A model generated the notes under the pieces. That model ran no database searches, was not told the DNA's origin, and saw nothing but the letters and a program-made list of their open reading frames with translations. A stretch of DNA of 47,572 nt from contig SHVV01000004.1 of the NCBI GenBank assembly GCA_009694095.1, forward strand, positions 1 to 47,572, in the 5' to 3' direction. Of this stretch, positions 28,094-45,880 are shown in pieces. The position numbers and the translations under genes were made by a program. Positions within the stretch are counted from its first letter, which is position 1, and each line of letters begins with the position of its first letter. The stretch is from Alphaproteobacteria bacterium (GTDB lineage: Bacteria > Pseudomonadota > Alphaproteobacteria > SHVV01).

Positions 28094-28981
28094 ATGCGCG
28101 TGAAGTTCGCCGAGGTAGGCGGAATACCGACTCGTTATTATTACGAAGGAAGCGGAGCGCCGCTCATGCTGGTCCATGGCGCCGGCGTGTCAGGCGATTC
28201 CTGGCTCCGCAACATCGATGAACTTGCGCGCGATTTCTCGATCGTCGCGCTCGACACGATGGGCCACGGCTTCACCGGCACCGGCGCTTACACCGGCGGA
28301 CCACCGCACGCCTACATGGTCGATCATTTGATCGCGCTCGCCAACCACGTCGGCTTCGACAAGTTCTCCCTGGCGGGGAGCTCGTTTGGGGCGATGCTTT
28401 CGATCCTCACCCACTTCAAAATCAAGGACCGGGTCGAAAAACTCATACTGATTTCGTCTGGATCGAGCACTCTTTCGGAGGAGGAGCACCTCAAGTCGGT
28501 ACAGAACGCCTACAAGAACGGCATGTCGGCGATGGAAAATCCGACCTACGAAAACTGTCGGGCGCGATTGGGACGAATCTTTTTCGATCCGAGCAAGATT
28601 CCCGAAGAATTGCTTTGGATGCAGGTGACGCTCTACGCTCGCCCCGGCGTCAAGGACAACTACGAGAAGCGAATGAAGGGGATGATGGACCCGGCGGCGA
28701 AAAAGTTCCGGGTGGCCGAGCGCATGCACGAGATCACGGTGCCGACGCTCTTGGTTTGGGGGCTAAATGATCCACGGGTGATCTACGGTCGCGCCGTGGA
28801 AGCTGCGAACCAGATCAAACAGTCCACGCTGGTCGGCTTCCCGGAATGCGGACACGAACCGCATATCGAGCACTGGCAAAGATTCAACACGGTCGCCCGA
28901 AAATTCTTAAAAGACGAACAGATCAAAGACGACCGTCAATTTGGTCAGGGCGCTGAATTCGGCGCCATAGCAGCGGAGTAG
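28094..28981 (+). CDS. Alpha/beta hydrolase (meta-cleavage-product hydrolase-like)
   Basis: MRVKFAEVGGIPTRYYYEGSGAPLMLVHGAGVSGDSW...SLAGSSFGAMLSIL (GxSxG)...VPTLLVWGLNDPRV...GHEPHIEHW. Confidence 0.9.
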   Translation: MRVKFAEVGGIPTRYYYEGSGAPLMLVHGAGVSGDSWLRNIDELARDFSIVALDTMGHGFTGTGAYTGGPPHAYMVDHLIALANHVGFDKFSLAGSSFGAMLSILTHFKIKDRVEKLILISSGSSTLSEEEHLKSVQNAYKNGMSAMENPTYENCRARLGRIFFDPSKIPEELLWMQVTLYARPGVKDNYEKRMKGMMDPAAKKFRVAERMHEITVPTLLVWGLNDPRVIYGRAVEAANQIKQSTLVGFPECGHEPHIEHWQRFNTVARKFLKDEQIKDDRQFGQGAEFGAIAAE

Positions 28982-28984
28982 GCG

Positions 28985-29848
28985 ATGCGCGCACATTTCA
29001 CCACCGTCAACGGCATTCGTACTCGCTATCACACCGAGGGCAGCGGCTACCCGCTCGTGCTCATTCATGGCGTCGGCATTTCGAGCGAGTCGTGGCTGCG
29101 CAATGTCGATGAACTGGGCAAAGATTTCTGGGTGATCGCGCCCGATTGCCTGGGGCAGGGTTTCACCGAGCCGGGCGACTACAAGAGCGGCCCGCCGCAG
29201 CCGCCCACGATCAAGCACTTGATCGGGTTGCTCGATCAGTTGGGTGTCGACAAGTTTGCGATCGCCGGGAGTTCGTTCGGGGCGATGATTTCGATCCTGA
29301 CCTGCTTTCAATTGCCGAAACGAGTCGAGAAGCTGATTTTGGTGTCGTCGGGGTCGAGCACGCTGCCGGAGGTCGAACTTGAAAAGTCGCTCAAGGAGTC
29401 GTACGCCAACGGTGCCAAAGCGTACCACAACCCAACCTTCGAGGTTTGCCTCAAGCGGTTGCAGAACGTGTTCTATAACCCGGACGACGTGCCGCGTGAA
29501 GTGATCTTGATGCAGCTTACGTCCTATCGCCTGCCCGGCGTGCTCGACGCGTACGAGACGCGCATGAAGGGACTGATGGATTTCGACGCGGTTCGCCCCT
29601 ATCGCACGGCCGAACGCCTGCACGAAATCAAGGTGCCGACTCTACTGATGTGGGGACTCAATGATCCACGCGTCATTTTCGCGCGCGCGCAGGAGGCGGC
29701 TGCTAAAATAGAGCGCGCGACCTTGGTCGCCTTCGACAAGTGCAAGCACTTCCCGCACATGGAACACCCGGCGCGGTTCAACCGGATTGTGCGGAAATTC
29801 TTGAAAGGCGAATCGATGGAGGACGAAACGCGCCGAGCCGCCGAGTAA
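28985..29848 (+). CDS. Alpha/beta hydrolase, tandem paralogue of the preceding gene
   Basis: MRAHFTTVNGIRTRYHTEGSGYPLVLIHGVGISSESWLRNVDELGKDF...AIAGSSFGAMISIL...VPTLLMWGLNDPRVIFARA; shares long stretches with 28094..28981. Confidence 0.9.
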   Translation: MRAHFTTVNGIRTRYHTEGSGYPLVLIHGVGISSESWLRNVDELGKDFWVIAPDCLGQGFTEPGDYKSGPPQPPTIKHLIGLLDQLGVDKFAIAGSSFGAMISILTCFQLPKRVEKLILVSSGSSTLPEVELEKSLKESYANGAKAYHNPTFEVCLKRLQNVFYNPDDVPREVILMQLTSYRLPGVLDAYETRMKGLMDFDAVRPYRTAERLHEIKVPTLLMWGLNDPRVIFARAQEAAAKIERATLVAFDKCKHFPHMEHPARFNRIVRKFLKGESMEDETRRAAE

Positions 29849-29889
29849 CCGCGGCGGCAGTCGATGAAGCGTCTAAACGACGGCGGGCG

Positions 29890-30987
29890 ATGGGCGCAAA
29901 CTTGATTTACTCTGCTGATTCGCACGTAAACGAGCCGGTCGATCTGTGGGTCAAGTCGATGGGCGCCAAATTTGGCGATCGAACGCCGCGGCTCGTTGAG
30001 GAGTTTCGCGGCGAGAAAGGCCGCTTCTTCTTTACCGGTCTCCGCGTGATGAAGCTCGCCGACGACGAGGATGAGCTTCGGCGTATGGGGCTTTCGCTTC
30101 AGGTCGCGTACGAACCCGATGCACGACTCGCATTTCAGCGCCAAGCTGGGGTTGATTGCGAAATCATCTATCCGACGTTTGGACTGCATCAGCTCGTCGG
30201 GCCGGACCGCGAAGCGATGCGCCGAGCGTGTGAAGTCTACAACGATTGGGCGGCGGAGTTTTGTGGCCACGACCGCAAGCGTCTGGTTCCGGTCGCCACC
30301 ATTCCGGTCGACGATGTCCGATGGGCGGTCGCCGAAATGGAGCGTTGCCGCAAGACGGGCCATTGGGGCGCGATGGTAAGCCTGCAGCCGCCGGTCGGAT
30401 TGCCGCCTTATCGCGACTCGATGTACGCGCCGATTTGGTCGGCGGCCGAGCGGCTCGGTATGCCGCTAACGCTTCATCTCGCAACTGGCCGGCGCAAGAC
30501 ACCGATCCAGGCCGCAGTCGATGGAACCACCGACGGCATGGCGGGTATCTATATGAGTACCCGAACCGAAATCATGGATGTTCTCGCTGACGATTTCATT
30601 TGGGGTGGGATTCTCGATCGGCACCCGAAGCTCGACATCATTTGCAGCGAGTTCGAGATTTCGTGGATTCCGTTCTTCTGCGCCAAGATGGATGAAATGC
30701 AGTTCGGTATGGGGCACCGCCTCAAACTGCCGAAGATTGAGATGAAAGCGAGCGACTACGTAGTCGAACGTGTATGGCACGTCCTCATCAATGACCGCTT
30801 CGGTGCCGAAACGGTCAAGATTGTCGGGCCGAAGCGTATATTATGGGGTTCGGATTTCCCACACGTTCGCTCGATCGGACTCAACGCGCGCCGCTACGTC
30901 GATACGTTGCTCGGCGCGCTTGATTCGAACGTTCGTCAGCAGGTTGTGGCGGACAATTGTGTCGGCCTTTTAGGCCGAACCCAGTAG
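29890..30987 (+). CDS. Amidohydrolase-2 family (ACMSD-like) metal-dependent hydrolase/decarboxylase
   Basis: From ATG 29890 MGANLIYSADSHVNEPVDLWVKSM...PLTLHLATG...FIWGGILDRHPKLDIICSEFEISWIPFF...ILWGSDFPHVRS. Confidence 0.85.
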   Translation: MGANLIYSADSHVNEPVDLWVKSMGAKFGDRTPRLVEEFRGEKGRFFFTGLRVMKLADDEDELRRMGLSLQVAYEPDARLAFQRQAGVDCEIIYPTFGLHQLVGPDREAMRRACEVYNDWAAEFCGHDRKRLVPVATIPVDDVRWAVAEMERCRKTGHWGAMVSLQPPVGLPPYRDSMYAPIWSAAERLGMPLTLHLATGRRKTPIQAAVDGTTDGMAGIYMSTRTEIMDVLADDFIWGGILDRHPKLDIICSEFEISWIPFFCAKMDEMQFGMGHRLKLPKIEMKASDYVVERVWHVLINDRFGAETVKIVGPKRILWGSDFPHVRSIGLNARRYVDTLLGALDSNVRQQVVADNCVGLLGRTQ

Positions 30988-31031
30988 TGGCAGAATGGGC
31001 ATTGAAAAGAAGCGCTGATACGGAGGGATAG

Positions 31032-32009
31032 ATGGCGATCCAGGAAGCAGAAACGCAGCGGCCGGCGGCTAAGAGGGACTACTTCCAGCCGCGTCGGTTT
31101 GGGCACGCCAATCTCTATATCGGCGAGATCGAACGCTCGATGGATTTCTACCGGAATGTCGTCGGACTGCGCGAAGCGTATCGCCGCCCGCGGATCCTGG
31201 CCGGGTTCCTGAACAACGGCAACACCCACCACGACATCGGCATGGTGTCGCTCGCGAGCAAAGCGGCGCGCAGTACGAAAATCGGCATCAACCACTTGGC
31301 GTGGGAACTCGAGACTCAGGTCGATCTGGTCGATGGCTATCGTCGTTCGATCGCCGACGGCATCCGCTACGACATGACGATCGATCACGAAATTTCGCAT
31401 TCACTCTACTTCAAGGACCCGGATGGAAACTTGAACGAGGTTTATGCCGATACCGAGATGCGTTGGTACAAGCAGCGTTTTGGCGACGTGCTGAAGCCGA
31501 CTCTGCAGTGGACGCCGGGCGATACCCTACCCTCGGACAAGATCCACTACGAACCCAATCCAGATTATGTCCGCGTCGAGCACGCGGTGTTTCATCCGAT
31601 CAAGATCACGCAGGCGATGCTGGTCGTCGACAATTACGAAGGTGCGTTCGACTACTACACCAAGAACGTCGGCTTGAAGCCGCTGATTGGCGGTCACGCG
31701 ACGCCCTATTGCGTGCTCGGCGGCACCTGCGGCCTGCGCGATCTCGCCTTGTTTCGGGCCAAGCCAAATCGCCCCGCCGAGCTCCATAACGTCAAGTTCG
31801 TGGTCTGGAGCGAACAGGATCTCGAAGCGTCGATCAAGCGTGCGCGGAACGAAGGCATTAAGATCCTCGCCGAAATCGATCATCCGAGCCGGCGTGGCAT
31901 CGCGATCGCCGACCCCGACGGCATCCGCATTCTTTTCTATGTCGATCGGACGAAGTCGACGCCTAACTTGGCCGGAATCGACGAGGAGACTGCGTTTTAT
32001 CTGGTGTAG
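31032..32009 (+). CDS. Two-domain VOC-superfamily extradiol dioxygenase-like protein
   Basis: FGHANLYIGEIERSMDFYRNVVGLREAYR...HDIGMVSL...GINHLAWELET...SLYFKDPDGNLNEVYADTEMRWY, then a second VOC domain ITQAMLVVDNYEGAFDYYTKNVGLKPLIGG. Confidence 0.85.
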   Translation: MAIQEAETQRPAAKRDYFQPRRFGHANLYIGEIERSMDFYRNVVGLREAYRRPRILAGFLNNGNTHHDIGMVSLASKAARSTKIGINHLAWELETQVDLVDGYRRSIADGIRYDMTIDHEISHSLYFKDPDGNLNEVYADTEMRWYKQRFGDVLKPTLQWTPGDTLPSDKIHYEPNPDYVRVEHAVFHPIKITQAMLVVDNYEGAFDYYTKNVGLKPLIGGHATPYCVLGGTCGLRDLALFRAKPNRPAELHNVKFVVWSEQDLEASIKRARNEGIKILAEIDHPSRRGIAIADPDGIRILFYVDRTKSTPNLAGIDEETAFYLV

Positions 32010-32101
32010 TCGCCAGTGTGACCGACCGCCCGGAGCACCGGGCGAGCTCAGAGGAAATGCGTTCGTTGGTACTTTGGTGTTGGTGGAGTGTACCCCTCGT
32101 C

Positions 32102-32566
32102 ATGACCGTCGAAGATCGCCTTAGCGCGCTTGGTCTCGTGGTGCCGCCGACCCACAAATTCCCCAACCAAAATCGGGTCGGGTGCGTCCGTGCCGGGAAT
32201 CTCGTCTTTGTATCGGGCCACCCGCCCACGGCGCTCCCCGGCGTGAAGACAACCGGTAAAGTAACGGGCGATCTCACGCTCGAGGAGGCGCAAATTACCG
32301 CACGCGCTTGCGCGCTCAACATGCTCGCGTCGCTCAAAGCGGAACTCGGCAGCCTAGATAAGATTAAGCGGGTCGTGAAGATCAACGGTATGGTCAATTC
32401 GTCGCCCGGGTTCATTCAGCAGTATGCGGTAATCGATGGTGCCTCGGACCTGTTTGTCCATTTGTTCGGACCCAAGAACGGGCCCCATGCACGCTCGGCG
32501 GTGGGTATGTTCGAACTGCCTCGCGCTATCCCGGTCGAAGTCGAAGGCGTCTTCGAAGTCGAATAG
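32102..32566 (+). CDS. RidA/YjgF/Rid family protein
   Basis: MTVEDRLSALGLVVPPTHKFPNQNRVGCVRAGNLVFVSGHPPT...GDLTLEEAQITARACALNMLASLKAELGSLDKIKRVVKINGMVNSSPGF...ARSAVGMFELPRAIPVEVEGVFEV. Confidence 0.92.
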   Translation: MTVEDRLSALGLVVPPTHKFPNQNRVGCVRAGNLVFVSGHPPTALPGVKTTGKVTGDLTLEEAQITARACALNMLASLKAELGSLDKIKRVVKINGMVNSSPGFIQQYAVIDGASDLFVHLFGPKNGPHARSAVGMFELPRAIPVEVEGVFEVE

Positions 32567-32649
32567 GATGAGGGCTCAGTAGCGTCATTGACCGCGTGGC
32601 TCATCCGCGCGACCATGGCGGCGGCATAGAGCGCGACCGAGGGGGGTTC

Positions 32650-33870
32650 ATGGCGATTACCGAACCGAGCGATGCCGAACCACGCGGCCGCGCGCGCCGG
32701 CCGAAACGAATCAACTACCCTGGCCGCGGCGGCAAGAGCGGATTTCATCCGCAGGCCGAGCATTCGGCCACCCTTCCGTCGTATTACTATTACGATCCGG
32801 CGATCTTCGAGCGCGAGAAAGAAGAAATCTTTTATAAGACTTGGCAGCTCGCTGGTTACGTGGCCGATCTCGCGAATGTCGGCGATTACATCACGACCCG
32901 CCTATTGGATCAGCTGATCTTCGTCGTTCGCGACAAAGATCGACGGTTGCGCGCGTTCTACAACGTCTGCATGCACCGTGGGCATACGCTGCTCGAAGGC
33001 AAGGGCAATGTGAAGAACATCACCTGCCCGTTCCATGCCTGGACCTATGGGCTCGATGGCGCGCTCAAGGCCGCCGGCAACGCCGAGAACGTGGTTGGTT
33101 TCGACCTTGACGATTTCGCCCTCAGCGAAGTTCGCGCCGAGCAGTTCTTGCATATGGTGTTCATCAACCTGGATCCCGATGCAACGTCGTTGAACGAGCA
33201 GGCCGGCGATTTGGCGGCCATGATGCGGCGCGTCTTACCGAACCTCGATCAAATGAAAAAGGTTCGCCGCGACACTTACGAAATCAAAGCCAACTGGAAA
33301 CTCTTGGGCGATCAACTCGAGTGCTACCACTGCCCGGTCATTCACCCGCAGGTCATGGGGAGCGAGGACTCCTATCTTCAACCCTCCTTCGAGTCCGAAG
33401 AGCACGGTATTTGGTCGATCGATGTCTCCAGGGGGGCCGACGATGTCTTGGAAAAAATCCGCAAGTTCCTGCCTGCCGACGTAGGTGCGGAAACGTTCAC
33501 CAAAGATGTCTATATCTGGTTCCTGTGGCCGAACTTGATTCTGATCACGCACCACGGCCCGCCCAACCTTAAGATTGGCTACGCGATGCCGGATGGGGTC
33601 GGGAACGTCGTTCGCCATATGGATCACTTCGTGCTCAATGATCCGCCGAACGCATTTGAATTGGCGCAGATGGACAACCACATGAATATCGCGGCGCCGC
33701 AAGACCGCGAAGCGATGGAAAAGCAGATGGTCGGCATTAGGGCGCGTGGCTACCGCCAAGGCCGGCTCATGGTCGATTCCGAGCATTCATGGCGGAGCGA
33801 GCACGGGGTCCACTTCTTCGACGACCTGGTCTGGAAAGCGCTGAACGGAGATCGATACGAGGCCGGCTGA
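32650..33870 (+). CDS. Rieske [2Fe-2S] aromatic-ring-hydroxylating-type oxygenase, alpha subunit
   Basis: CMHRGHTLLEGKGNVKNITCPFHAW (Rieske C-x-H...C-x2-H) and NWKLLGDQLECYHCPVIHPQ (mononuclear Fe site). Confidence 0.92.
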   Translation: MAITEPSDAEPRGRARRPKRINYPGRGGKSGFHPQAEHSATLPSYYYYDPAIFEREKEEIFYKTWQLAGYVADLANVGDYITTRLLDQLIFVVRDKDRRLRAFYNVCMHRGHTLLEGKGNVKNITCPFHAWTYGLDGALKAAGNAENVVGFDLDDFALSEVRAEQFLHMVFINLDPDATSLNEQAGDLAAMMRRVLPNLDQMKKVRRDTYEIKANWKLLGDQLECYHCPVIHPQVMGSEDSYLQPSFESEEHGIWSIDVSRGADDVLEKIRKFLPADVGAETFTKDVYIWFLWPNLILITHHGPPNLKIGYAMPDGVGNVVRHMDHFVLNDPPNAFELAQMDNHMNIAAPQDREAMEKQMVGIRARGYRQGRLMVDSEHSWRSEHGVHFFDDLVWKALNGDRYEAG

Positions 33871-33978: not shown

Positions 33979-35400
33979 ATGACCAAACGGATTCGGTGCG
34001 GCCGGTTGTTCAGCGGGATCGAGAACGAGACCCGCAAGGATCAGACTATCGTCGTCGACGATGGCGGCGTCATCACGTACGTCGGACCGACGAACGAGGC
34101 GCCGCCGCGGGGCTCGCGTGAAGTTTCGATCGATCACAGCAAGCAGTTCGTGATGCCCGGGCTGATCGACGCGCACACGCATCTCACGTTCGGCGGAACG
34201 CAAACGCTCGAAGACATCGATCTCTATGCGCCGCTCGAATTTCGCGCGCTGCGGGCGCTCATCTGGGGCCAGCGGCTGCTGCAAGCGGGCTTCACCGGCG
34301 TGATCGATCCCGGCTGCACTGGTCGCACCATGATTTCGGTGCGCGATGCGATCAACTCCGGAATGTTCGAAGGACCGCGCGTCTGCGCCTCGGGTCCGTT
34401 CATCGGCAACTATCAAGGATACACCGCGTTCTATCCGACGTGGATCAACAATCCGACCGCGGTGTATGCGCATGTCGATTCGATCGACCGCGGCATCGAG
34501 ATCGTGCGTTCGTTCGCCAAGGATGGGGTCGACTTTTTCAAATTCGCGCTCGACGGCAGCGCGCTCGACGGCAAGGGCGGATTGGCGTCGTCGATGCGGC
34601 CCGATGAAACCAAAGCTTTGTTCGGCGAGGCGCATCGCCTCGGCAAGCGCGTGATTGCTCACTCGAAGGGACGCGACGGCGCCGAAACAGCGGCCAAAGC
34701 TGGCGCCGACGTGATCTACCATTTCTCGTGGCAGGACGATGCGTCGCTCGAGGCGGTGATCGCCAACAAAGTAACGATTTGCCCTTCGCTCGTCATCATT
34801 CACAATCGCTATGCGTACACTCAACCGACGGACGGTCACGGGATGGGAGCTTCGACCGCGGGCCGCCTGCGGGACCCTCGTCATCCCGAGTGGGACGGCC
34901 ACGGCGCCCGATCGGATCTCGGACGTTCGGAATGGCGCGGCGCGATCGCGGCCGCCAAGAAAGCCTATCAGGCTGGCGTTCCGATCATGGTCGGCAGCGA
35001 CTCCGGATTTGCGGTGTGCCCGGTCGGCGAATGGAACGCGCTTGAGCTTGTGCTTCTGCACAAGTACGTCGGGATGACGACGGCCGATGTCCTCAAGGGT
35101 GCGACGTCGGTCAACGCCAAGTTCATGCCGGGCGGCGACAAGTTTGGCGTGCTCGAGAAAGGTCGCTTCGCCGACATCTTGGCCGTCGATGGCGATCCTC
35201 TCACGGCGATCGACGTGCTGCTCGATAAGTCGAAACTCACCGTCTACAAGGCGGGCGAACGCATCAAGTCAATGCCGCCCGCGATCAACTACCGCAAAGA
35301 GCAGGATTTCTCCTATCGCATGTGGCAGGACGTCTACGACCAGCGCTTTGTCAAAGCGTTGGGCGAGGCGTCGCGGCTGCAGGCTTTTGCCGCTGAGTAG
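33979..35400 (+). CDS. Amidohydrolase-superfamily protein (imidazolonepropionase/prolidase-like)
   Basis: MTKRIRCGRLFSGIENETRKDQTIVVDDGGVITYVGP...FVMPGLIDAHTHLTFGG...KRVIAHSKG...PIMVGSDSGF...ADILAVDGDPLTAIDVL. Confidence 0.9.
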   Translation: MTKRIRCGRLFSGIENETRKDQTIVVDDGGVITYVGPTNEAPPRGSREVSIDHSKQFVMPGLIDAHTHLTFGGTQTLEDIDLYAPLEFRALRALIWGQRLLQAGFTGVIDPGCTGRTMISVRDAINSGMFEGPRVCASGPFIGNYQGYTAFYPTWINNPTAVYAHVDSIDRGIEIVRSFAKDGVDFFKFALDGSALDGKGGLASSMRPDETKALFGEAHRLGKRVIAHSKGRDGAETAAKAGADVIYHFSWQDDASLEAVIANKVTICPSLVIIHNRYAYTQPTDGHGMGASTAGRLRDPRHPEWDGHGARSDLGRSEWRGAIAAAKKAYQAGVPIMVGSDSGFAVCPVGEWNALELVLLHKYVGMTTADVLKGATSVNAKFMPGGDKFGVLEKGRFADILAVDGDPLTAIDVLLDKSKLTVYKAGERIKSMPPAINYRKEQDFSYRMWQDVYDQRFVKALGEASRLQAFAAE

Positions 35401-35413
35401 CTATCAGTTCGTC

Positions 35414-36778
35414 ATGGCGCGAAAAGGACGTTTCCTCTCGGCTCCGTACGGTGCCTACCATCAAGCGATCGTACCGCCGATCGACGAGACTATGCAGCTG
35501 GTGGGTCCGGGCACGCCGGGCGGCGAGTATCTGCGTCGATTCTGGCACCCAGTCGCGCAATCGGTGCGGCTCGACGACCGGCCAGTCGCATTGCGTATCC
35601 TCGGCGAAGATCTGGTCCTGTTTCGCGACAAATCGGGCCAGCTCGGATTACTGCACCGAAACTGCGCGCACCGCGGCACTTCGCTTGAGTTCGGCAAGAT
35701 CGAGGAGCACGGTCTGCGGTGCTGCTATCATGGCTGGCTGTTCGGCGTCGATGGAGCGCTGCTCGAAACGCCGGCCGAGCCCGCGAATAACCCTTATCTC
35801 GGTAGACTTTGCCAGGGTGCCTATCCGGTCGTCGAACGTCATGGCCTCGCGTTCGCTTATTTTGGCCCTCCGGACAAGAAACCGCCGCTACCCGCTTTCG
35901 ACATCATTGATCAACCGGGGATGGCAATCGGCCATGGTGAGCCATCGGTCATTGGCAACGTCAAGCCGTGCAATTGGCTTCAGATCATGGACAACGTGGT
36001 TGATCCGGTGCACGAACCGTTCCTGCACGCGCGTCACTCGGGGATTCAGTTCCGTGATCGCGACGGGCGCGAGGTGAGCGAACTGCTCGACTTGGGCGAG
36101 CCGGAGTGGTTCGAGACGCCGATTGGCATCCTCTGCGAGGAAGCACGCTGGGTGGGCGACTCGGTTTGGGTTCGCTCGATGGAATATATCTGCCCCAACA
36201 TCGCGCTCGTGTGTCAGACCCCGAGCCTGCCGCCGCACTATTCGAGCAAGTCGGACGAGATCGCATCGCTCCCACTGCTCTGCCGCTGGCGGGTTCCGGT
36301 TGATGACACGACGACCACCGAATTCGCGTATGTCTTTTATCCACGCACCGGCGTCAATGATTACCTGTCGAACGCAATTCCGGGAACGCGGTCGAACTAC
36401 GGTGATCGGAGCTACGAGGAACGGCAGCGGTACCCCGGCGACTATGACGCCCAGGTGTCGCAGCGCTCGATCGCTCGACACACGAACGAGCACCTGGCGG
36501 CATCCGACAAGGGTGTGGCGATGATGCGCCGCATGGTGCGCGACGGGATCGAGACGGTGGCGCGCGGCGAAGATCCAAAAGGGCTCCTGCGAACGCCCGG
36601 CGAAGTATCCACCTACGCCAATGAAACCGTGAAACGCTTGCCGCGCGGCGCGAACGAGGTCGAGAATCGGAGTATTTTGAAGGCCGCGATGCGGGCCGTT
36701 TTCGAACGTTCCTCACAAGGATCGCTGGCGGCGCGGGTGCGCCGAGACGCTTTACCCCCGCTTCAGATCAAGGTCTGA
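35414..36778 (+). CDS. Rieske oxygenase, phthalate 4,5-dioxygenase-like (paralogue A)
   Basis: MARKGRFLSAPYGAYHQAIVPPIDETMQLVGPGTPGGEYLRRFWHPVAQS...CAHRGTSLEFGKIEEHGLRCCYHGW...NWLQIMDNVVDPVHEPFLHARHSG. Confidence 0.92.
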   Translation: MARKGRFLSAPYGAYHQAIVPPIDETMQLVGPGTPGGEYLRRFWHPVAQSVRLDDRPVALRILGEDLVLFRDKSGQLGLLHRNCAHRGTSLEFGKIEEHGLRCCYHGWLFGVDGALLETPAEPANNPYLGRLCQGAYPVVERHGLAFAYFGPPDKKPPLPAFDIIDQPGMAIGHGEPSVIGNVKPCNWLQIMDNVVDPVHEPFLHARHSGIQFRDRDGREVSELLDLGEPEWFETPIGILCEEARWVGDSVWVRSMEYICPNIALVCQTPSLPPHYSSKSDEIASLPLLCRWRVPVDDTTTTEFAYVFYPRTGVNDYLSNAIPGTRSNYGDRSYEERQRYPGDYDAQVSQRSIARHTNEHLAASDKGVAMMRRMVRDGIETVARGEDPKGLLRTPGEVSTYANETVKRLPRGANEVENRSILKAAMRAVFERSSQGSLAARVRRDALPPLQIKV

Positions 36779-36803
36779 GCGAATCGATACCTAGATGCGG
36801 CGG

Positions 36804-37811
36804 CTAGCGCCGACCCGCGTCGACCGGGCGCCACTTGCGGGTCGACTCGATGAATAGATCCTCCGGTGCGAACTTCTTGGCTGAAATTCCTTGCTCGAAC
36901 GACCAACGCGTTTGCGCTTCGAGCGTCGGGCTGAGCGGCTCGACGCCGTAAGGCCAGAAATTCTTTCCCATCAGTTTGACGGTGTCTTCTGCCTCGGCCA
37001 CGATCCAGGGCAGACTGGTTGTTAAAGCATCGAGCTCAAACAGACGGGGCATCGCCCATTGCTTGGCAAGTTCGAACGCATTCAGCAAGTTCACCGGCAA
37101 CCACGAGTACTTCTCGATCATGTCGGTTCGGATGCCGATCAAATGCATGATCGGCCAAACTTTGGTGCGTTCGAAGCTCGCGCGCTCGACGCTGCGGAAA
37201 TCCGGAAACAGGCGCTTGATCTTGGGATGACCGGCGAGGAACGCATCGGGATCGCGGGCCGCAACGATCGCATCGATCTTGCCCTCGATCAGGAGCTCGG
37301 TCAGAGACTTGCCACGTTCGGCCATCTTGGCTTCGATGCCGGCAGGCGGTTCGAAGTCCATGTAGGCGTGATCATAGGCGGTGTCCACTCCGCCGAAACA
37401 GTACTTGATGTCGGTGTGGCCGATGCCGAATTCATCTTTCAGCACGCCTTTGGCCGAGAGCCCGCGCGTAAAGTGATAGTTAGGCATGCCGATCGTGGCG
37501 CCTTTCAAGTCCTGCGGTTTCTTGATGCGGCCGTCGGCGTTGATCCAAATCGAGCAGTGCGCGAAGACGCGTGAAACAGCCACCGGGATCGCACGATAGG
37601 GGAGATCGCGGCGCGAGCGAGCCAGCATGTAGGTCGAGAGCGACATCTCCGAGACTTGGAACTCGTGGTTGTTCATGAGCCGCGGGAACGAGGACGATGG
37701 CGGCAAATGAACGAACGTTACGTCGCAGCCTTCGACTTTGACGTCACCGTCGCGAAGCGCTTGGATGCGGTCGTAGTTGTCGCAAACGATTGTAAGCGGT
37801 ACGCGCGCCAT
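36804..37811 (-). CDS. 4,5-dihydroxyphthalate decarboxylase-like / NMT1-type substrate-binding-fold protein
   Basis: MARVPLTIVCDNYDRIQALRDGDVKVEGCDVTFVHLPPSSSFPRLMNNHEFQVSEMSLSTYMLARSRRDLPYRAIPVAVSRVFAHCSIWIN...KKPQDLKGATIGMPNYHFT. Confidence 0.8.
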   Translation of the reverse strand: MARVPLTIVCDNYDRIQALRDGDVKVEGCDVTFVHLPPSSSFPRLMNNHEFQVSEMSLSTYMLARSRRDLPYRAIPVAVSRVFAHCSIWINADGRIKKPQDLKGATIGMPNYHFTRGLSAKGVLKDEFGIGHTDIKYCFGGVDTAYDHAYMDFEPPAGIEAKMAERGKSLTELLIEGKIDAIVAARDPDAFLAGHPKIKRLFPDFRSVERASFERTKVWPIMHLIGIRTDMIEKYSWLPVNLLNAFELAKQWAMPRLFELDALTTSLPWIVAEAEDTVKLMGKNFWPYGVEPLSPTLEAQTRWSFEQGISAKKFAPEDLFIESTRKWRPVDAGRR

Positions 37812-37985
37812 TGGCTCCTCCTTGAACGACCATCGCCAGCGCCGCTCGAACGACGCCTATCACATGGCCGTGCTTTCCTTAGCCCAGAGTGGGCACCGCG
37901 TCCACGCTCGCTGCGCCCTTGATTGAGCAACGCCATAGCCTCACAATCGCCGGCACTAGGCGCAGTTGCATAGAGGCAATCGGAG

Positions 37986-39311
37986 ATGGCGGATCAGCAT
38001 CGATTTCTAACCGAGACATTTTCGGCCTACACGCAGGCTGAAGTTCCGCCGATCGAGGAGAATCTGCAGCGAGTCGGACCGGGAACGCCGGGCGGCGAAT
38101 ATTTGCGCCGTTTTTGGCAGCCGGTTGCCCAGTCGGCGATGTTGAAGGACCTTCCGGTCAAGATCCGCATCATGGGCGAGGATTTGGTTATTTTTCGCGA
38201 TAAGTTGGGGCGGGTCGGCTTACTTGAGATGCACTGCACGCACCGTGGAACGTCTCTTGAGTTTGGTAGGATCGAGGACCGCGGTATCCGCTGCTGCTAT
38301 CACGGCTGGCAGTTCGATATCGATGGCGCGATCCTCGACACCCCGGCCGAGCCGGAAAAAAATCCGTACAAGGGTAAGCTCTACCAAGGCGCTTATCCGA
38401 CGATCGAATATCGCGGGCTGGTGTTCGCTTACATGGGGCCGCCGGACAAGAAACCGCCGTTCCGCAAGTTCGACATCTTCGAAAATCCAGACATCGACTT
38501 TGGGCTTGGAGAACCGCTCGGCGGCAATTTGAAGCCGTGCAATTGGCTGCAAGTCATGGACAATGTCGCCGATCCGGTGCACGAGGCGTTCTTGCATGCT
38601 TCGATATCGGGCATACAGTTCACTGACACCAACGGGCGCACGGTCGAAGAGCTCGCCGACAAAGGCGAGGACGACTACTGGGAAACCGATGTCGGCGTCC
38701 TTTGCCATGTGGCGCGGCGCGTCAAAGAAGCGGTTTGGGTTCGCTCGATGGAGTACGTGATTCCAAACATTATCCAGATCTGCCAAATGCCGTTGTTGCC
38801 GCCGCCGTTTGCAAGCGGTGAGGACGAACTCACGATGCCGCAGCTCCTGACGCGGTGGCGTGTTCCGATCGACGACGAAAACACGATCGAATTCGCGTTG
38901 GTCTATTTCGGCAGGAATGACGAAAGAAACTACGTGAGTGCGCCTTCAATCGCCCTCGCTACGAACCGCGGCGGCCGCAGCTACGAGGAAGCGCAGCGCA
39001 CGCCGGGCGACTACGATGCGCAAGTCGGTCAAGGACCGATCGCGCGCCACGGCCGGGAGCACCTTGGTCGCACCGATCGCGGTGTCGCGCTCATGCGCCG
39101 GATCGTGCGCGAAGGGATCGAAGCGGTCGAGCGAGGCGAGGACCCGAAAGGATTGTTCCGGAACGGGGCGATCGCGCCGGTCTACGCCAACGAGACCATC
39201 CGCCGTGCATCACGCGGTGCGACTCCGGAGGAAGACCGCGCGATCGTTCGCCGCGTCTCGCACGACCTTTATCGAAAAACGTTGGCGTCGCGACCGCGAA
39301 CATGGGCCTAA
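37986..39311 (+). CDS. Rieske oxygenase, phthalate 4,5-dioxygenase-like (paralogue B)
   Basis: MADQHRFLTETFSAYTQAEVPPIEENLQRVGPGTPGGEYLRRFWQPVAQS...CTHRGTSLEFGRIEDRGIRCCYHGW...NWLQVMDNVADPVHEAFLH. Confidence 0.92.
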   Translation: MADQHRFLTETFSAYTQAEVPPIEENLQRVGPGTPGGEYLRRFWQPVAQSAMLKDLPVKIRIMGEDLVIFRDKLGRVGLLEMHCTHRGTSLEFGRIEDRGIRCCYHGWQFDIDGAILDTPAEPEKNPYKGKLYQGAYPTIEYRGLVFAYMGPPDKKPPFRKFDIFENPDIDFGLGEPLGGNLKPCNWLQVMDNVADPVHEAFLHASISGIQFTDTNGRTVEELADKGEDDYWETDVGVLCHVARRVKEAVWVRSMEYVIPNIIQICQMPLLPPPFASGEDELTMPQLLTRWRVPIDDENTIEFALVYFGRNDERNYVSAPSIALATNRGGRSYEEAQRTPGDYDAQVGQGPIARHGREHLGRTDRGVALMRRIVREGIEAVERGEDPKGLFRNGAIAPVYANETIRRASRGATPEEDRAIVRRVSHDLYRKTLASRPRTWA

Positions 39312-39378
39312 CGACGACCACTATCGACCTCTCCCCGTGGAGAAGCGAGTTTCTTCGGCAAGGCGAGAGGGCTCACTA

Positions 39379-40701
39379 ATGGGCGCACAGCATTTTCTCA
39401 CCGAAACGTACGGTGGCTATCGGATCGCCAAACAACCGGCGATCGACGAAGACCTCACGCGGGTCGGGCCGCGTACTCCAGCCGGAGAATTGCTCCGGCG
39501 CTATTGGCAGCCGATTTTACATTCGGCCGACCTCAAGGACCTGCCGGTTCCAGTTCGGATTCTTGGCGAGGACCTGGTTGCTTTTCGCACCCTGGGGGGA
39601 GAGGTGGGGCTGCTCGAGCGACACTGTTCGCACCGCGGCGCCTCGCTCGAGTACGGCAAGATCACGGAAAACGGTATCCGCTGCTGCTACCACGCGTGGC
39701 ATTTCGCGCCTGATGGGCGCTTGATCGAGGCACCGACCGAGCCTGCGCAGAACCTATATGCCGGCAAGCTCTGCCAGGGCGCCTATCCGACGAGGGAATT
39801 TGCCGGACTTGTGTTCGCCTATTTGGGGCCACCTGAACGCAAGCCGATATTTCCGCTCTACGATTCGCTCGCGCGGAAGGACTTTCACTTCGGCCTCGGC
39901 GAGCCCGACGGGAACAAGATCAACATCCAGCCGACCAACTGGCTGCAGATGATGGACAACACGCCCGATCAGGCGCACGAGGCGTTTCTCCATTGCATGC
40001 ACTCCGGCCCGCAGTTTCTAGACCAGAACGGTCGGCCGATCACCGAACTTGCTATCATTGGCGAACTTGATTGGTGGGAGACGCCGGCCGGGCTCGCCTG
40101 TCACGAAGCGCGTCGGGTCGGCCCCGATGTCTGGGTTCGCTCGATGGAGCTTCTGTTTCCGAACTCGGTCCAGGTCTGTCGCCCACCGGTATTCCCGCCG
40201 ATCTATCCGCCCGAAAAGAACAGGATCGAATACCCGCCGTTCTTGATCCGGTGGAAGGTGCCGATCGATGACACGCATACGGCGAACTACTCGATCATCT
40301 TCTACTTTCACGATGAGCCGGCTGACTATTTCACCAAGCCGACGCCGGCGGCCAAAGCGCTTTATAGCAATCGAACGTACGAAGAGATGCAGCGCTCGCC
40401 GGGTGATTTCGAAGCTCAGATCGGGCAAGGGCCGATCGCTATTCAGGCGCGCGAGCATTTGGGCCGCACCGATCGCGGACTCGCGATGATGCGCAAGATG
40501 TTGCGCGACAATATCGAGGCCGTGCGCCGCGGCGACGATCCAAAAAATGTCGTTCGTACGGCGAACGGCCCGATCCCGACGTACTCGCGCGAAATGATGA
40601 TTCGAGTACCGATGGCTAACGACCCTGAAACGGATAAGAGTCTTTTGCGCCAGCTGTCGAAGCAGACACTCGATCTTTCCTTCGCGGCGGCAGGGCGCTG
40701 A
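39379..40701 (+). CDS. Rieske oxygenase, phthalate 4,5-dioxygenase-like (paralogue C)
   Basis: MGAQHFLTETYGGYRIAKQPAIDEDLTRVGPRTPAGELLRRYWQPILHS...CSHRGASLEYGKITENGIRCCYHAW...NWLQMMDNTPDQAHEAFLH. Confidence 0.92.
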   Translation: MGAQHFLTETYGGYRIAKQPAIDEDLTRVGPRTPAGELLRRYWQPILHSADLKDLPVPVRILGEDLVAFRTLGGEVGLLERHCSHRGASLEYGKITENGIRCCYHAWHFAPDGRLIEAPTEPAQNLYAGKLCQGAYPTREFAGLVFAYLGPPERKPIFPLYDSLARKDFHFGLGEPDGNKINIQPTNWLQMMDNTPDQAHEAFLHCMHSGPQFLDQNGRPITELAIIGELDWWETPAGLACHEARRVGPDVWVRSMELLFPNSVQVCRPPVFPPIYPPEKNRIEYPPFLIRWKVPIDDTHTANYSIIFYFHDEPADYFTKPTPAAKALYSNRTYEEMQRSPGDFEAQIGQGPIAIQAREHLGRTDRGLAMMRKMLRDNIEAVRRGDDPKNVVRTANGPIPTYSREMMIRVPMANDPETDKSLLRQLSKQTLDLSFAAAGR

Positions 40702-40772: not shown

Positions 40773-42215
40773 ATGGTCGGTATCCTTGCATATGGCGGTT
40801 ATGTCCCGCGGCTTCGGCTGAAACGCGCAGCGGCGGTCGCAGCAAACGCCTGGTTCGCGCCAGGGCTTAAGAGCTACGCGCAGGGCGAACGCTCGATCTG
40901 CAATTGGGACGAAGACACGCTCACGATGGCAGTCGCTGCCGCGCGCGATTGCTTGGGGCCAACACCGCCCAAGAGTTTGGCCGCGCTCTACTTGGCTTCG
41001 ACCACTCATCCATTTGCGGATCGGCAAAACGCGGCCGTGGTTGCGACCGCGCTCAATCTGCCGGCTGATCTCGCGACCTCGGACGTTTCCGGAACGCAGC
41101 GCGCTGGAACCTCCGGCTTGATAACCGCCTTGAACGTCGTGAGGGGAACTGGAAATCCCGCTCTTTATATCGCCGCCGACAACCGACGCACGAAGTCCGG
41201 ATCGGCCGGCGAACTGCTCTACGGCGCGGGCGCGGCGGCGCTGGTGCTTGGGCCGGACGACGGGACCGCCGAGTTCGTCGCTTCGCATCAGATAGCAGTC
41301 GATTTTGTCGACCACTATCGAGCCGAGGGCGAGGAGTTCGACTACGGATGGGAAGAACGTTGGATTCGCGACGAAGGATTCGCTCGGCTCGTGCCGCAGG
41401 CGTTGACCGGCCTGTTTGCAAAGACCGACATTAAACCGAATGAGATCGACTATTTCGTCTTACCGTGCGTGTTTCGCGGCGTTGTCCAGGGGATTGTTAA
41501 ACGGATCGGCATTCGCGAAGCGGCGGTGAGCGATAACCTGCACACGGTCATGGGCGAAGCGGGTGCAGCGCACGCCGTGGTGATGCTGGCGAGGCTCCTT
41601 GAGACGGCGAAGCCAGGGCAAACGATCCTGGTCGCCAGCTTCGGCCAAGGATGCGATGCGCTTCTCTTTCGAGCGACCGATCGGATCGCGATGACGAGGC
41701 CCTCCCGCGGCATTAGCGGTTTTCTCGCTCGCCGCAAGGAAGAGACTAACTACCAGAAATTTCTCGCCTTCAACGATCTCGTGGTTCGCGACCTGGGCAT
41801 GAGGAGTGAAGTCGACAAACAAACGGCGATGACCACGCTCTATCGCAACAAGGAGATGATCCTGGGGTTCGTCGGCGGGAAATGCCGTGTTTGCGGCACG
41901 CTGCAATATCCGAAATCAAATATCTGCGTGAACCCCAATTGTGGCGCGGTCCACAGCCAGGACAACCACCCGTTTGCCGATACACCGGCGGAAATTCTGA
42001 CTTGGACCGCCGACAATCTCACGTTTACCGCCGATCCGCCGGCGCATTACGGAATCGTTCAATTCGCCGCGGGTGGCCGGTTCCTCGCCGATTTCACGGA
42101 TGTCGATCCGGGAACGATCGATGTCGGACAGCCGATGCGAATGACGTTCCGCATCAAAGACCGCGATCGGCAGCGCGGCTTCGTGCGATACTTTTGGAAA
42201 GCGGCGCCGGGCTAG
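40773..42215 (+). CDS. HMG-CoA-synthase/KAS-III-like thiolase-fold protein with C-terminal DUF35-type zinc-ribbon/OB domain
   Basis: MVGILAYGGYVPRLRLKRAAAV...CNWDEDTLTMAVAAARDCL...GAGAAALVLGPD; C-terminal CRVCGTLQYPKSNICVNPNCGAVHSQDNH (CxxC...CxxxxC) followed by an OB-like region. Confidence 0.85.
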   Translation: MVGILAYGGYVPRLRLKRAAAVAANAWFAPGLKSYAQGERSICNWDEDTLTMAVAAARDCLGPTPPKSLAALYLASTTHPFADRQNAAVVATALNLPADLATSDVSGTQRAGTSGLITALNVVRGTGNPALYIAADNRRTKSGSAGELLYGAGAAALVLGPDDGTAEFVASHQIAVDFVDHYRAEGEEFDYGWEERWIRDEGFARLVPQALTGLFAKTDIKPNEIDYFVLPCVFRGVVQGIVKRIGIREAAVSDNLHTVMGEAGAAHAVVMLARLLETAKPGQTILVASFGQGCDALLFRATDRIAMTRPSRGISGFLARRKEETNYQKFLAFNDLVVRDLGMRSEVDKQTAMTTLYRNKEMILGFVGGKCRVCGTLQYPKSNICVNPNCGAVHSQDNHPFADTPAEILTWTADNLTFTADPPAHYGIVQFAAGGRFLADFTDVDPGTIDVGQPMRMTFRIKDRDRQRGFVRYFWKAAPG

Positions 42216-42234
42216 GGTTACATGGGAGCGAGCG

Positions 42235-43437
42235 ATGGCACAGGGCATCAGGGACAAAGTCGCGATCCTCGGCATGGGGTGCTCGAAGTTTGGCGAACGC
42301 TGGGACGCAGACGCTGACGACCTTATCGTCGAGGCCTTCACCGAGTGCGTGAAGGACGCCGGAATCGACAAGAGCCGCATCGAAGCCGCTTGGCTCGCCA
42401 CCGCGATCGAAGAAGTGAGCGTCGGCAAATCAGGAATACCGCTCGCGCAAGCGCTACGCCTTCCCTATATCCCGGTGACGCGCGTCGAGAATTTTTGCGC
42501 CTCAGGTACGGAGGCATTTCGTGGCGCGGTCTATGCCGTGGCCTCTGGCGCTGTCGATATCGCGCTAGCGGCCGGTGTCGAGAAATTGAAAGACACCGGT
42601 TACGGGGGCTTGCCGCAGCGAAGCCGAGGATCGCTCAACGACATGTACTGGGCGAACCTATCGGCGCCGGGGAGTTTCGCGCAACTTGCGTCGGCCTACC
42701 GGGCGAAGCACCGGGTGAGCCGAGAAGACCTAAAGCGGGCGATGGCGCGGGTTTCGATCAAGAGCCACGCCAATGGCGTCAAAAATCCTAAGGCTCATCT
42801 GCGCAAAGCAATCACGGAAGAGGACGCGCTCAAGGCGCCGATGGTGGCCGAGCCGCTGGGTCTGTTCGATTGCTGCGGCGTTTCGGACGGCGCGGCCTGC
42901 GCGATCGTGACGCGTCCGGAAATCGCTCGCGAACTCGGCAAGAGCGACCTTGTATCGGTCAAGGCGCTGCAGCTGTCGGTCTCCAACGGCGCCGAAGCCG
43001 GCTACAACAATTGGGACGGAAGCCATTTCGTCACCGCCCGCATCGCGTCGCGTAAGGCCTACGAAGAAGCGGGCATCGGCAACCCGCGTGATGAAATCAG
43101 CATGGTCGAGGCGCACGATTGCTTCTCGATCACCGAGCTTGTGGCCATGGAAGACCTGCGCCTTTCGAACGAGGGCGAGGGGTGGCGGGACGTGCTCGAT
43201 GGAGCATTCGACGCCGATGGCCGTCTTCCCGTCCAAATCGACGGCGGCCTCAAGTGTTTTGGGCACCCGATCGGCGCATCGGGGCTGCGGATGCTGTACG
43301 AAATGTACCTGCAGCTCCAAGGACGCGCCGGCGAGCGCCAAATCAAGAATCCGCGCTTCGGCATGACCCATAATTTGGGCGGGTTTCCGCATCAGAATGT
43401 GTGTTCGGTCGGAATTCTCGGGCGCTTCGAACACTAA
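42235..43437 (+). CDS. Thiolase (SCP-x-like acetyl-CoA acetyltransferase family)
   Basis: MAQGIRDKVAILGMGCSKFGERWDAD...VTRVENFCASGTEAFRGAVYAVASGAVDIALAAGVEKLKDTGYGG...CFGHPIGASGLRMLYE...THNLGGFPHQNVCSVGIL. Confidence 0.9.
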   Translation: MAQGIRDKVAILGMGCSKFGERWDADADDLIVEAFTECVKDAGIDKSRIEAAWLATAIEEVSVGKSGIPLAQALRLPYIPVTRVENFCASGTEAFRGAVYAVASGAVDIALAAGVEKLKDTGYGGLPQRSRGSLNDMYWANLSAPGSFAQLASAYRAKHRVSREDLKRAMARVSIKSHANGVKNPKAHLRKAITEEDALKAPMVAEPLGLFDCCGVSDGAACAIVTRPEIARELGKSDLVSVKALQLSVSNGAEAGYNNWDGSHFVTARIASRKAYEEAGIGNPRDEISMVEAHDCFSITELVAMEDLRLSNEGEGWRDVLDGAFDADGRLPVQIDGGLKCFGHPIGASGLRMLYEMYLQLQGRAGERQIKNPRFGMTHNLGGFPHQNVCSVGILGRFEH

Positions 43438-43593
43438 GCCGAGGTACGGCCGGCCAAAAGGATCGCTCGTGGGCTCGCTTCGACTATCGGGGTATTCACC
43501 GAGGGCGCTCCTGCGACGTCCCGATACTTCTCGGCGCGCCGCTACGGCACAATCCGACCGACGGTTTCCTCTTGACCGCGAGCGAAGAAGGTT

Positions 43594-44128
43594 GTGTCCG
43601 ACAGTTCCCGCTATGAAGTGCAGCTGAAAACCCGCGGCTCGTGGGCCAAGGATTCGTTTCATCCGGGCAAGGTCGCTGCGATGGTGGTGGCCCAAAAGCT
43701 CATCAAAGCTGCAAAGTGCGATGGCGTTCGGATCTGCGGCCTGGTTCCCGTCAAACCGGCGGACGCGTCGGTCGGCACGCGCGAGCTAGCCCGCGGGGCA
43801 TACCTTTTTCGACAGGGAGCAGCGGGGGACGAGGCCTACGTTATCGAAAGCGGCCATATGGAGGTCCTGTTGGGGGAACGCGGCAGCGAAAGAATCTTTG
43901 GCGTTCTCGATCGGGCCGATATGGTGGGTGAAATTGCCTTGATCGACGATCAACCGCGCATGGCGTTGGCACGAGCGAAAACCGCCGCCGTGCTTACGGT
44001 TGTACCGAAATCGACATTTCGCGCTCGCATCGACCGAATTGCCGACATCGATCCATTCATTAGCCTCCCTCCTTGCAACCTACGTCGAACGTCTTCGGTT
44101 TTACGCGGCGCCAACACCGCCCAGCTAA
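43594..44128 (+). pseudogene. Cyclic-nucleotide-binding-domain protein with C-terminal frameshift
   Basis: GTG start; ELARGAYLFRQGAAGDEAYVIESGHMEVLLGERGSERIFGVLDRADMVGEIALIDDQPRMALARAKTAAVLTVVPKSTF; after DPFISL the neighbouring frame reads LLATYVERLRFYAAPTPPS* (TAA 44126-44128), the expected continuation. Confidence 0.7.
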
Positions 44129-44189
44129 CGAGGCTGGCGTATCGAAGCGATCGTATTGACACATCGCGGGCGGCGGTTACCGTGGCGTC

Positions 44190-45170
44190 ATGGCGATCAA
44201 GCGTGAGGATGTCGCGTTCTATAGCGAAGGAGTAAAGCTCTGGGGGCGCCTTTGTCTCCCGGAGGGTTACGCGCTCGGCCAGCGCCGGCCGGCGGTAGTC
44301 AACCTCGTTGGGTTCACTGGAACCTACGACTACAAAGGCTCCTCCGCCGACTTGGGCGATCGTCTGGCGCGCGAGGGCTACGTGACGCTCGGGTTCGACT
44401 ATCGCGGTTTTGGTCGGAGCGAGGGCGCTCATCGCATCGTCAATCCGCTGATGCAGGTGAGGGACGTGCAAAATGCCATCACCTACCTGCAAACGCGACC
44501 AGAAGTCGATCCGAACCGGATCGCTTTGTGGGGGCGCAGCCTGGGCGCGGGGATCGCCTGCTATACCGGGGCCGTTGATCGGCGCATCGGTGCGGTCGTG
44601 TCGTATGCCGCTGTCGCTGACGGGCATCGTTGGCTGCGCCATCTCATTCCGGGTCCGGAGTGGCAGGATTTGATGCAGGCGGTAGAGGTCGATCGGCGTG
44701 CGCGCGTTCTTGGCAACGCGCCGCCAAAGACGATCGCCGCCTACGACATCGCCCGCAAACGCCGCGCCGACTACGTCGCCGAAAATGCCGATGACGAGAA
44801 ACTTGGTCATATCGGCGGCGAGATCTTATTGGAGAGCGCGCAGACGATTGCTGCTTTTTCGGCCGAATCGGTGATCAATCAGATGACGGGACGTCCGATT
44901 CTTTTCGTTCATGCTCAGTCGGACGCCACGGTCCCGCCAGACCATACCCGGTCGCTGTACGAAAAATGCGGCGAACCCAAGGCACTCTGGCTTATTCCGG
45001 CCGACTGGTCGAAGGGTCACTACGGCATGTTCAAAGGCCAAAACGACCCTTCCGAAAATACGCCGTGGGCGCGCCTGACACGGCCGATCGTGCGCTGGTT
45101 GAAGGAAGTTTTTCCGGTCAACGAAGCTCCGAACCTCGGGGTGGTGCGTGGCGCGTTTCGCGTCGACTGA
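44190..45170 (+). CDS. Alpha/beta hydrolase (dienelactone hydrolase/acetylxylan esterase-like)
   Basis: MAIKREDVAFYSEGVKLWGRLCLPEG...VNLVGFTGTYDYKGSSADLGDRLAREGYVTLGFDYRGFGRSEG...IALWGRSLGAGIACYTGA...RPILFVHAQSDATVPPDHT. Confidence 0.85.
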   Translation: MAIKREDVAFYSEGVKLWGRLCLPEGYALGQRRPAVVNLVGFTGTYDYKGSSADLGDRLAREGYVTLGFDYRGFGRSEGAHRIVNPLMQVRDVQNAITYLQTRPEVDPNRIALWGRSLGAGIACYTGAVDRRIGAVVSYAAVADGHRWLRHLIPGPEWQDLMQAVEVDRRARVLGNAPPKTIAAYDIARKRRADYVAENADDEKLGHIGGEILLESAQTIAAFSAESVINQMTGRPILFVHAQSDATVPPDHTRSLYEKCGEPKALWLIPADWSKGHYGMFKGQNDPSENTPWARLTRPIVRWLKEVFPVNEAPNLGVVRGAFRVD

Positions 45171-45173
45171 AGG

Positions 45174-45814
45174 ATGGGTTGCCCCACGACAAGTGCCGGC
45201 GAGGCCCGTTCCGCAAAACCGACGAACGCACGATTGCTCCTGCGGAAGGTACGGCCCTTCCTGTCGCGCACTTTTTTCGGCGACATCCGCCTTATCTTCC
45301 AATATCCGACCAACGAACTTCGGTTCGTCCCGCAACCGGGGCTCACGTACTTTAGGTACAACTCGTTCGCCGAGATTCCGGTTGATGCGGTCGCGGGATC
45401 GGAGCGGGAGATCGGCAGCGATTTTTCCGATGCGGCAAAGACACGCTTTGACGAAGACGCTGGCTATACGTTCTACGCCACGAAGGCGTCGCCGCCGGGG
45501 TGAGTTGGACGAAGAGTGGCCGGAACATCGCGCGCTGGTTCATCGACCTCTCTCCCGACGACGTTGTCGCGTATGCGGCGGTCACCGCGCCGCGTTTGCG
45601 GGGACGCGGCCTACGCGCTAGTTTCCTACCGTTCATGGTTCAAGAGGAGCTGCGTCGGGGCGCGCGCGATATCTACTGCGACGTTTCGAAATTCAACCCG
45701 GCGGCGATGCGCAACAACCAGAAACAAGGCTGGCACTACCTGGCCGAAGTGCGCGCCCGTAAGACGCTGTTCGGGCGCAAACTCTTCGACCTCCCGACCA
45801 GTCGCGCGAATTGA
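45174..45814 (+). pseudogene. GNAT-type acetyltransferase split by a frameshift
   Basis: Frame 1: GDIRLIFQYPTNELRFVPQPGLTYFRYNSFAEIPVDAVAGSEREIGSDFSDAAKTRFDEDAGYTFYATK; continues in another frame GVAAGVSWTKSGRNIARWFIDLSPDDVVAYAAVTAPRLRGRGL...FNPAAMRNNQKQGWHYLAEVRARKTLFG; shift around 45480-45490. Confidence 0.6.
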
Positions 45815-45880
45815 GGACGCTCGAAATTTTCCTCGCCATGGAAAGGTGGCCCGGTAACGCAGCCATTGTCAGGATCGCCC

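Follow-up and report, generated by a model that had tools for sequence, protein, structure and literature searches.

A run of six plus-strand genes at 28094–33870 of a 47,572-nucleotide stretch of alphaproteobacterial DNA (lineage SHVV01; GenBank assembly GCA_009694095.1, contig SHVV01000004.1; the whole stretch is referred to here as the window) is a plausible candidate for a catabolic ring-cleavage operon, in which a Rieske oxygenase, a ring-opening VOC protein, an alpha/beta hydrolase and a Rid protein acting on an imine or enamine acid may cooperate. The run comprises, in this order, two alpha/beta hydrolases (hyd1 and hyd2), a PF04909 (Amidohydro_2) protein (AHS2), the VOC protein, Rid and the Rieske oxygenase alpha subunit RieskeA. 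There is good support for a ring-cleavage module that includes imine hydrolysis, since the VOC active site is complete, the synteny recurs in other genomes, the VOC-linked Rid proteins form a clade and the Rid arginine is kept. That the genes serve aromatic ring-cleavage catabolism is very likely; that the imine step acts on an intermediate of this pathway appears finely balanced. The genome that contains the window, that of an uncultured lake bacterium, was assembled into 92 contigs totalling 1.88 Mb, of which the window is contig 64, and is 63% complete. An earlier note on this DNA had described five tightly spaced plus-strand genes at 28094–32566 and proposed that they handle a nitrogen-containing ring-cleavage product. 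Open reading frames and Pfam families agree with that description, and the run continues into RieskeA.

The ring-opening step is assigned to the VOC gene (31032–32009, +), which contains two Glyoxalase/VOC stretches and encodes a predicted two-domain type I extradiol-like dioxygenase. H25, H88 and E136 constitute its metal triad and are joined by H67, H119 and Y126, at a spacing that fits the type I extradiol family. All six residues are invariant in 18 of 18 VOC relatives, in an alignment that reaches down to 30% identity. They match in order and spacing H153, H199, H214, H246, Y255 and E265 of XylE, which we take to be the metal ligands and second shell of this catechol 2,3-dioxygenase. HMMER aligns residues 21–142 of VOC with residues 149–271 of XylE, i.e. 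the catalytic C-terminal domain of the latter, and in the C-terminal domain of VOC itself, Gln occupies the first of the His positions while the third lacks Glu. Hence, whereas two-domain type I extradiol dioxygenases carry the active site in their C-terminal domain, it is located in the N-terminal domain here. With an AlphaFold2 model of VOC (mean predicted local distance difference test score, pLDDT, 88.5), the best Foldseek matches were all extradiol dioxygenases, including 5zsz and 1mpy (E 8e-17, template modelling score about 0.65–0.7). The earlier view of VOC as an extradiol-type protein is thus upheld by the full residue set, 2-His-1-Glu ligands included, and by the predicted fold; in contrast to the LigB-type 2-aminophenol dioxygenases, VOC is not of the LigB type. 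Equivalog models of known extradiol dioxygenases match VOC far below their cut-offs (HpaD, 47 versus 321 bits), which sets it apart as a separate subfamily, and a narrow literature search returned no account of two-domain extradiol dioxygenases whose first domain carries the site.

Within the class, 9 of 385 genomes contain members of the VOC family at 1e-60. Among 399 genomes drawn evenly across the phylum, no relative at 1e-80 was found outside the window's own genome, so that the family is uncommon at this stringency, and plasmids yielded no relative at 1e-40. The window genome itself contains at least eight stretches matching VOC. A second ring-cleavage candidate in this genome (L026, G000:C84, 9706–12861) consists of two tandem VOC genes and, after them, a hyd2-family hydrolase (45%); no Rid match was found in that stretch.

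The Rid gene (32102–32566, +; PF14588) encodes a predicted Rid1-type imine/enamine deaminase. Its closest solved relatives are 3d01 and two Rid1 proteins, PA0814 and ACIAD3089, for which in vitro deamination of imines has been reported (PMC5619798). Apart from these three, 2otm is the only natural Rid chain with a match at E 1e-3; no solved chain named RidA or AmnE attains this value. R131 of the window protein, at the position of RidA Arg105, is invariant in the four VOC-linked Rid proteins, and an arginine equivalent to RidA Arg105 is the criterion for imine hydrolysis in the RidA and Rid1–3 subfamilies (PMC4433059, PMC5619798). In ten searched genomes, the four top-scoring Rid proteins are exactly the four that adjoin a VOC gene. 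These proteins form a clade of their own (support 97/95; 97% of bootstrap trees) that is common to two families.

Conservation of the neighbourhood, whose absence would have spoken against the proposal, is partial and extends to a sister species and another family. In the sister genome G001, the order hyd1-hyd2-amidohydrolase-VOC-Rid-Rieske is kept at 76–89% identity (87% for the hyd1 ortholog). As the amidohydrolase and hydrolase families are rich in paralogs within the genus (11 and 11 matches in the window genome, 22 and 15 in G001), adjacency within the genus alone carries less weight. Two genomes of another family contain a reduced core, namely hydrolase-VOC-Rid-Rieske at L068 and Rieske-hydrolase-VOC-Rid at L069. 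In each of these genomes (3.1 and 3.5 Mb), exactly one VOC relative was found at 1e-60 and a single hydrolase at 1e-30, and the two are located end to end; the chance of such an adjacency is, to an order of magnitude, about 2 kb in 3 Mb per genome. Because the single close VOC and the single close hydrolase adjoin in both genomes, the VOC-hydrolase-Rid-Rieske linkage exceeds chance. Amidohydrolase-VOC pairs (L064, L066) were also observed in the second family, along with divergent amidohydrolase-hydrolase pairs (G335, G002, G001). A literature search brought up no cluster of this kind; the closest description was a speculative scheme for 2,4-diaminotoluene (PMC7118221). In the window, the genes of the five-gene run are spaced by 3, 41, 44 and 92 bp, counted from the likelier start codons of the amidohydrolase (29890) and of Rid (32102) (the longest listed open reading frames open further upstream at GTG, at 29740 and 32018, respectively), and RieskeA begins 83 bp after the end of Rid. 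A promoter and terminator scan was uninformative, with fewer matches than in shuffled sequence.

RieskeA (32650–33870, +) holds the same position in the sister species and is closest to the quaternary-amine (group V) Rieske monooxygenases, with the carnitine monooxygenase CntA (6y8j, 6.6e-64) as nearest relative; it reaches 142 bits with the GbcA model (cut-off 670). Its LECYHC motif aligns with MECYHC of CntA and thus keeps the bridging Glu and the Cys-x-x-Cys beside the iron site that characterize group V (PMC10952381). The CntA position 203, whose aromatic residue (Va) or Asn (Vb) marks the group V subgroups (PMC7948474), is a gap or Gln in RieskeA, which therefore shares the group hallmark with CntA and GbcA but lacks the Tyr/Phe or Asn of the described subgroups. 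An oxygenase that resembles RieskeA by eye and contains ATLPGNYYFDSGIYEREKEAIW is encoded at 804–1985 of another contig of the window genome (L083, G000:C69), which also holds a hydratase/decarboxylase pair discussed below. Further downstream in the window, 35417–40701 encodes three additional Rieske oxygenases, two of them clearly of the phthalate-dioxygenase/LigXa type, around a minus-strand NMT1-fold gene (36804–37811) that presumably resembles 4,5-dihydroxyphthalate decarboxylase. RieskeB (35417–36778, +; 7fhr, 2.5e-46) and RieskeC are of the phthalate-dioxygenase/LigXa type found beside hydrolase-VOC in other lineages, where their relatives (53–61%) adjoin VOC at L017, L020, L068 and L069. 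At L020, a 46% relative of the NMT1-fold gene lies near the Rieske-hydrolase-VOC arrangement.

The hydrolases hyd1 (28094–28981, +; PF00561/PF12697) and hyd2 (28985–29848, +) are 57% identical and appear to have arisen within the genus by tandem duplication. Both are closest to the meta-cleavage product hydrolases CumD and MhpC (CumD, 2d0d, as best solved relative of hyd1 with E 3.8e-22, and 8.6e-26 for hyd2), and the Ser-Asp-His triad (S97, D227 and H255 in hyd2 numbering) is invariant across the hydrolase alignment. In known C–C hydrolases, the equivalents of MhpC Arg188 and Trp264 hold the dienoate; in hyd2 these positions are Gln177 and Phe256. The label "meta-cleavage-type" given in the earlier note is hence to be read purely as one of homology.

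From these components, we infer substrates, reactions and a direction of the route as follows. RieskeA or the phthalate-dioxygenase-type RieskeB/C could convert an aromatic compound into a vicinal diol or aminophenol. VOC would then open the ring next to the catechol or aminophenol pair at the iron site of its N-terminal domain, one or both hydrolases could cut the opened chain, and the Rid1 protein may hydrolyze an imine or enamine acid formed en route, thereby freeing ammonia. In the version that we prefer, a 2-aminophenol-like ring bearing a side chain would be opened by VOC to a 2-amino-6-oxo-dienoate, from which a hydrolase may release 2-aminopenta-2,4-dienoate. Rid would turn this compound into 2-oxopent-4-enoate for the hydratase-aldolase-acetaldehyde dehydrogenase route. 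2-Aminopenta-2,4-dienoate is a vinylogue of 2-aminoacrylate, a known Rid substrate, yet its role as the exact intermediate must be considered doubtful. The scheme resembles the hydrolase branch of the bph, cum, mhp and hsa systems in its Rieske oxygenase, type I extradiol dioxygenase, alpha/beta hydrolase and hydratase-aldolase-acetaldehyde dehydrogenase sequence. It differs in the N-terminal instead of C-terminal extradiol site, in hydrolases without the His-Trp and Arg signature, and in the additional Rid and PF04909 proteins.

The earlier note had taken the absence of lower-pathway genes from the window as a hint at an undescribed route. A pair of genes resembling 2-oxopent-4-enoate hydratase and a decarboxylase is encoded on contig C69 of the same genome. 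In sister genomes, a 4-hydroxy-2-oxovalerate (HOA) aldolase and an acylating acetaldehyde dehydrogenase are adjacent at L086, both over cut-offs, and G001 contains a 4-hydroxy-2-oxovalerate aldolase over cut-off. Since a hydratase-like protein, aldolase and acetaldehyde dehydrogenase are thus encoded elsewhere in this or in sister genomes, their absence from the window alone is no argument for an undescribed lower route. A different kind of novelty would arise if nitrogen were retained through ring opening and C–C cleavage until a dedicated Rid1 protein removed it from a 2-enamino acid, with an N-terminal-site extradiol dioxygenase and a PtmU3-kind amidohydrolase-fold oxygenase present in 10 to 22 copies per genome of the genus. 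We consider such an undescribed route unlikely.

Several observations weigh against the proposed operon function. The hydratase/decarboxylase pair on C69 scores below curated cut-offs, and the incomplete window genome yielded no aldolase above the cut-off. In the hyd family, Phe, Glu or His mostly takes the place of the Trp found directly after the catalytic His of CumD, MhpC and HsaD, and Trp itself occurs only at L058 and L059; as the equivalents of MhpC Arg188 and Trp264 are missing, the hydrolases likely act on a different substrate, and other hydrolyses may be considered. In addition, the Rid-linked VOC proteins do not form a single clade, and a Rieske-hydrolase-VOC arrangement without Rid occurs at L017, L020 and L059. 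Rid is hence a frequent rather than fixed partner, and the VOC family does not depend on a nitrogen step. The latter two observations would also be expected from the main alternative, an ordinary meta-cleavage pathway without a nitrogen step. It would degrade a natural aromatic compound, for instance an acid derived from lignin or resembling phthalate, and Rid would protect against nearby reactive imines or be a passenger. The phthalate-dioxygenase/LigXa type of RieskeB–D, clear for two of these three downstream oxygenases, and the NMT1-like gene between the Rieske genes point in the same direction. However, the VOC-linked Rid proteins constitute their own clade in two families and abut VOC in four genomes, and RieskeA, directly after Rid, is closest to amine-cleaving enzymes. 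We therefore regard the nitrogen-free pathway as possible but not probable, and retain the operon with an imine-hydrolysis step as our working proposal.

The amidohydrolase-fold protein AHS2 (29890–30987, +) had been taken as ACMSD-like. What it shares with ACMSD is PF04909: among solved proteins it matches PtmU3 most strongly (4e-38), compared to 5e-8 or weaker for ACMSD, and other matches include 5-carboxyvanillate decarboxylase (4e-10) and LigY (5vn5, 6e6i; 1e-4). The metal ligands D10, H12, H196, E254, D322 and H325 (Asp-x-His...His...Glu...Asp-x-x-His) are kept in 13 of 13 sequences, PtmU3 included, and correspond to the PtmU3/AibH2 set. ACMSD, by comparison, uses His-x-His and a His at the fourth position. 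With Asp-x-His and Glu at these places and the far weaker similarity, the ACMSD assignment was rejected. A LigY/LigW-type role was also set aside in view of the match strengths. The LigXa-LigZ-LigY-LigW route for 5,5'-dehydrodivanillate in Sphingobium SYK-6 has a LigXa-type Rieske oxygenase, ring cleavage and PF04909 enzymes in common with the window, but its LigZ is LigB-type and it includes no Rid protein.

These results also bear on the route favoured in the earlier note, i.e. 3-hydroxyanthranilate/2-aminophenol cleavage followed by ACMSD-like decarboxylation and 2-aminomuconate deamination. The superfamilies involved are the same (extradiol-type dioxygenase, PF04909, Rid), and the amn cluster of Pseudomonas sp. 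AP-3 and Burkholderia xenovorans LB400 likewise combines extradiol-type ring opening with a Rid-family deaminase that frees ammonia afterwards. In the amn 2-aminophenol pathway, however, the dioxygenase is LigB-type, a semialdehyde dehydrogenase takes part along with AmnE, which acts on 2-aminomuconate, and there is no C–C hydrolase. The window instead encodes a VOC-type protein, hydrolases that have no place in that route, a Rid1-type protein and a PtmU3-type amidohydrolase. AmnE is a member of the RidA subfamily (PMC6742747). Rid, being Rid1-type, is hence not its counterpart by descent, and an AmnE assignment was rejected. The route, already disfavoured, is thus highly improbable. Of the earlier interpretation, ring cleavage (VOC residues and fold), membership in the Rid family with its catalytic Arg, and the nitrogen step suggested by this Arg and the Rid clade persist, while the ACMSD/2-aminomuconate deaminase model and the RidA-subfamily analogy have to be abandoned.

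Tentatively, AHS2 may be an oxygenase of the PtmU3/AibH2 kind that hydroxylates the substrate, perhaps a CoA ester or a side chain, before the hydrolases act, which would be compatible with the proposed operon. No other solved protein matches it nearly as well as PtmU3, and all six metal ligands of AibH2 (PMC7782822) occur in AHS2 and every member aligned. The same six ligands served to pick 555 oxygenase candidates (PMC10401708), a criterion under which AHS2 is therefore a candidate. Proteins of the AHS2 type adjoin VOC in two families (L016, L064, L066) or form the divergent pairs with hydrolases mentioned above. Unlike the amidohydrolase-related dinuclear oxygenases PtmU3 and AibH2, however, AHS2 and its VOC- and hydrolase-linked relatives have Arg (Arg327) in place of the acidic residue (PtmU3 Glu313, AibH2 Asp342) that is reported to be confined to dinuclear members (PMC7782822). 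Moreover, no AibG-type small Rieske ferredoxin was recognized beside AHS2, and an AlphaFold2 model from three sequences (mean pLDDT 51) was too poor for use and discarded. PtmU3-like genes number 11 in the window genome and 22 in the sister genome, and tandem triplets of such PF04909 genes are found in all three genomes of the genus (G001:C4, G002:C10, G000:C85).

Between RieskeA and RieskeB, an amidohydrolase of family 1 is encoded at 33979–35400, whose best NCBIfam match is Xaa-Pro dipeptidase (178 bits, cut-off 500); an 88% ortholog is located at L016, about 6 kb from RieskeA. A second catabolic block at 40773–46924 encodes an HMG-CoA-synthase-like protein, a thiolase (PRK06157, 702 bits, over cut-off) and an F420-dependent luciferase-like oxidoreductase (TIGR03617, over cut-off). 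F420-type chemistry is unexpected in an alphaproteobacterium.

Taken together, VOC, the Rid1 clade and the PtmU3-like protein point to an unstudied degradation in lake water of aromatic organic matter, some of it possibly nitrogenous. VOC proteins with an N-terminal site are numerous and would otherwise receive the annotation "glyoxalase" or "catechol 2,3-dioxygenase" untested. The in vivo substrates of Rid1–3 are reported to have been entirely unknown (PMC4433059), and a Rid1 clade that is locked to a ring-cleavage gene therefore offers a defined place to seek them. The abundance of the PtmU3-like protein raises the question of whether amidohydrolase-fold oxygenases extend beyond the members with the acidic residue at the second metal site. 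This variant of the meta-cleavage modules would gain interest if the Rid1 or the PtmU3-like protein were shown to act in the pathway.

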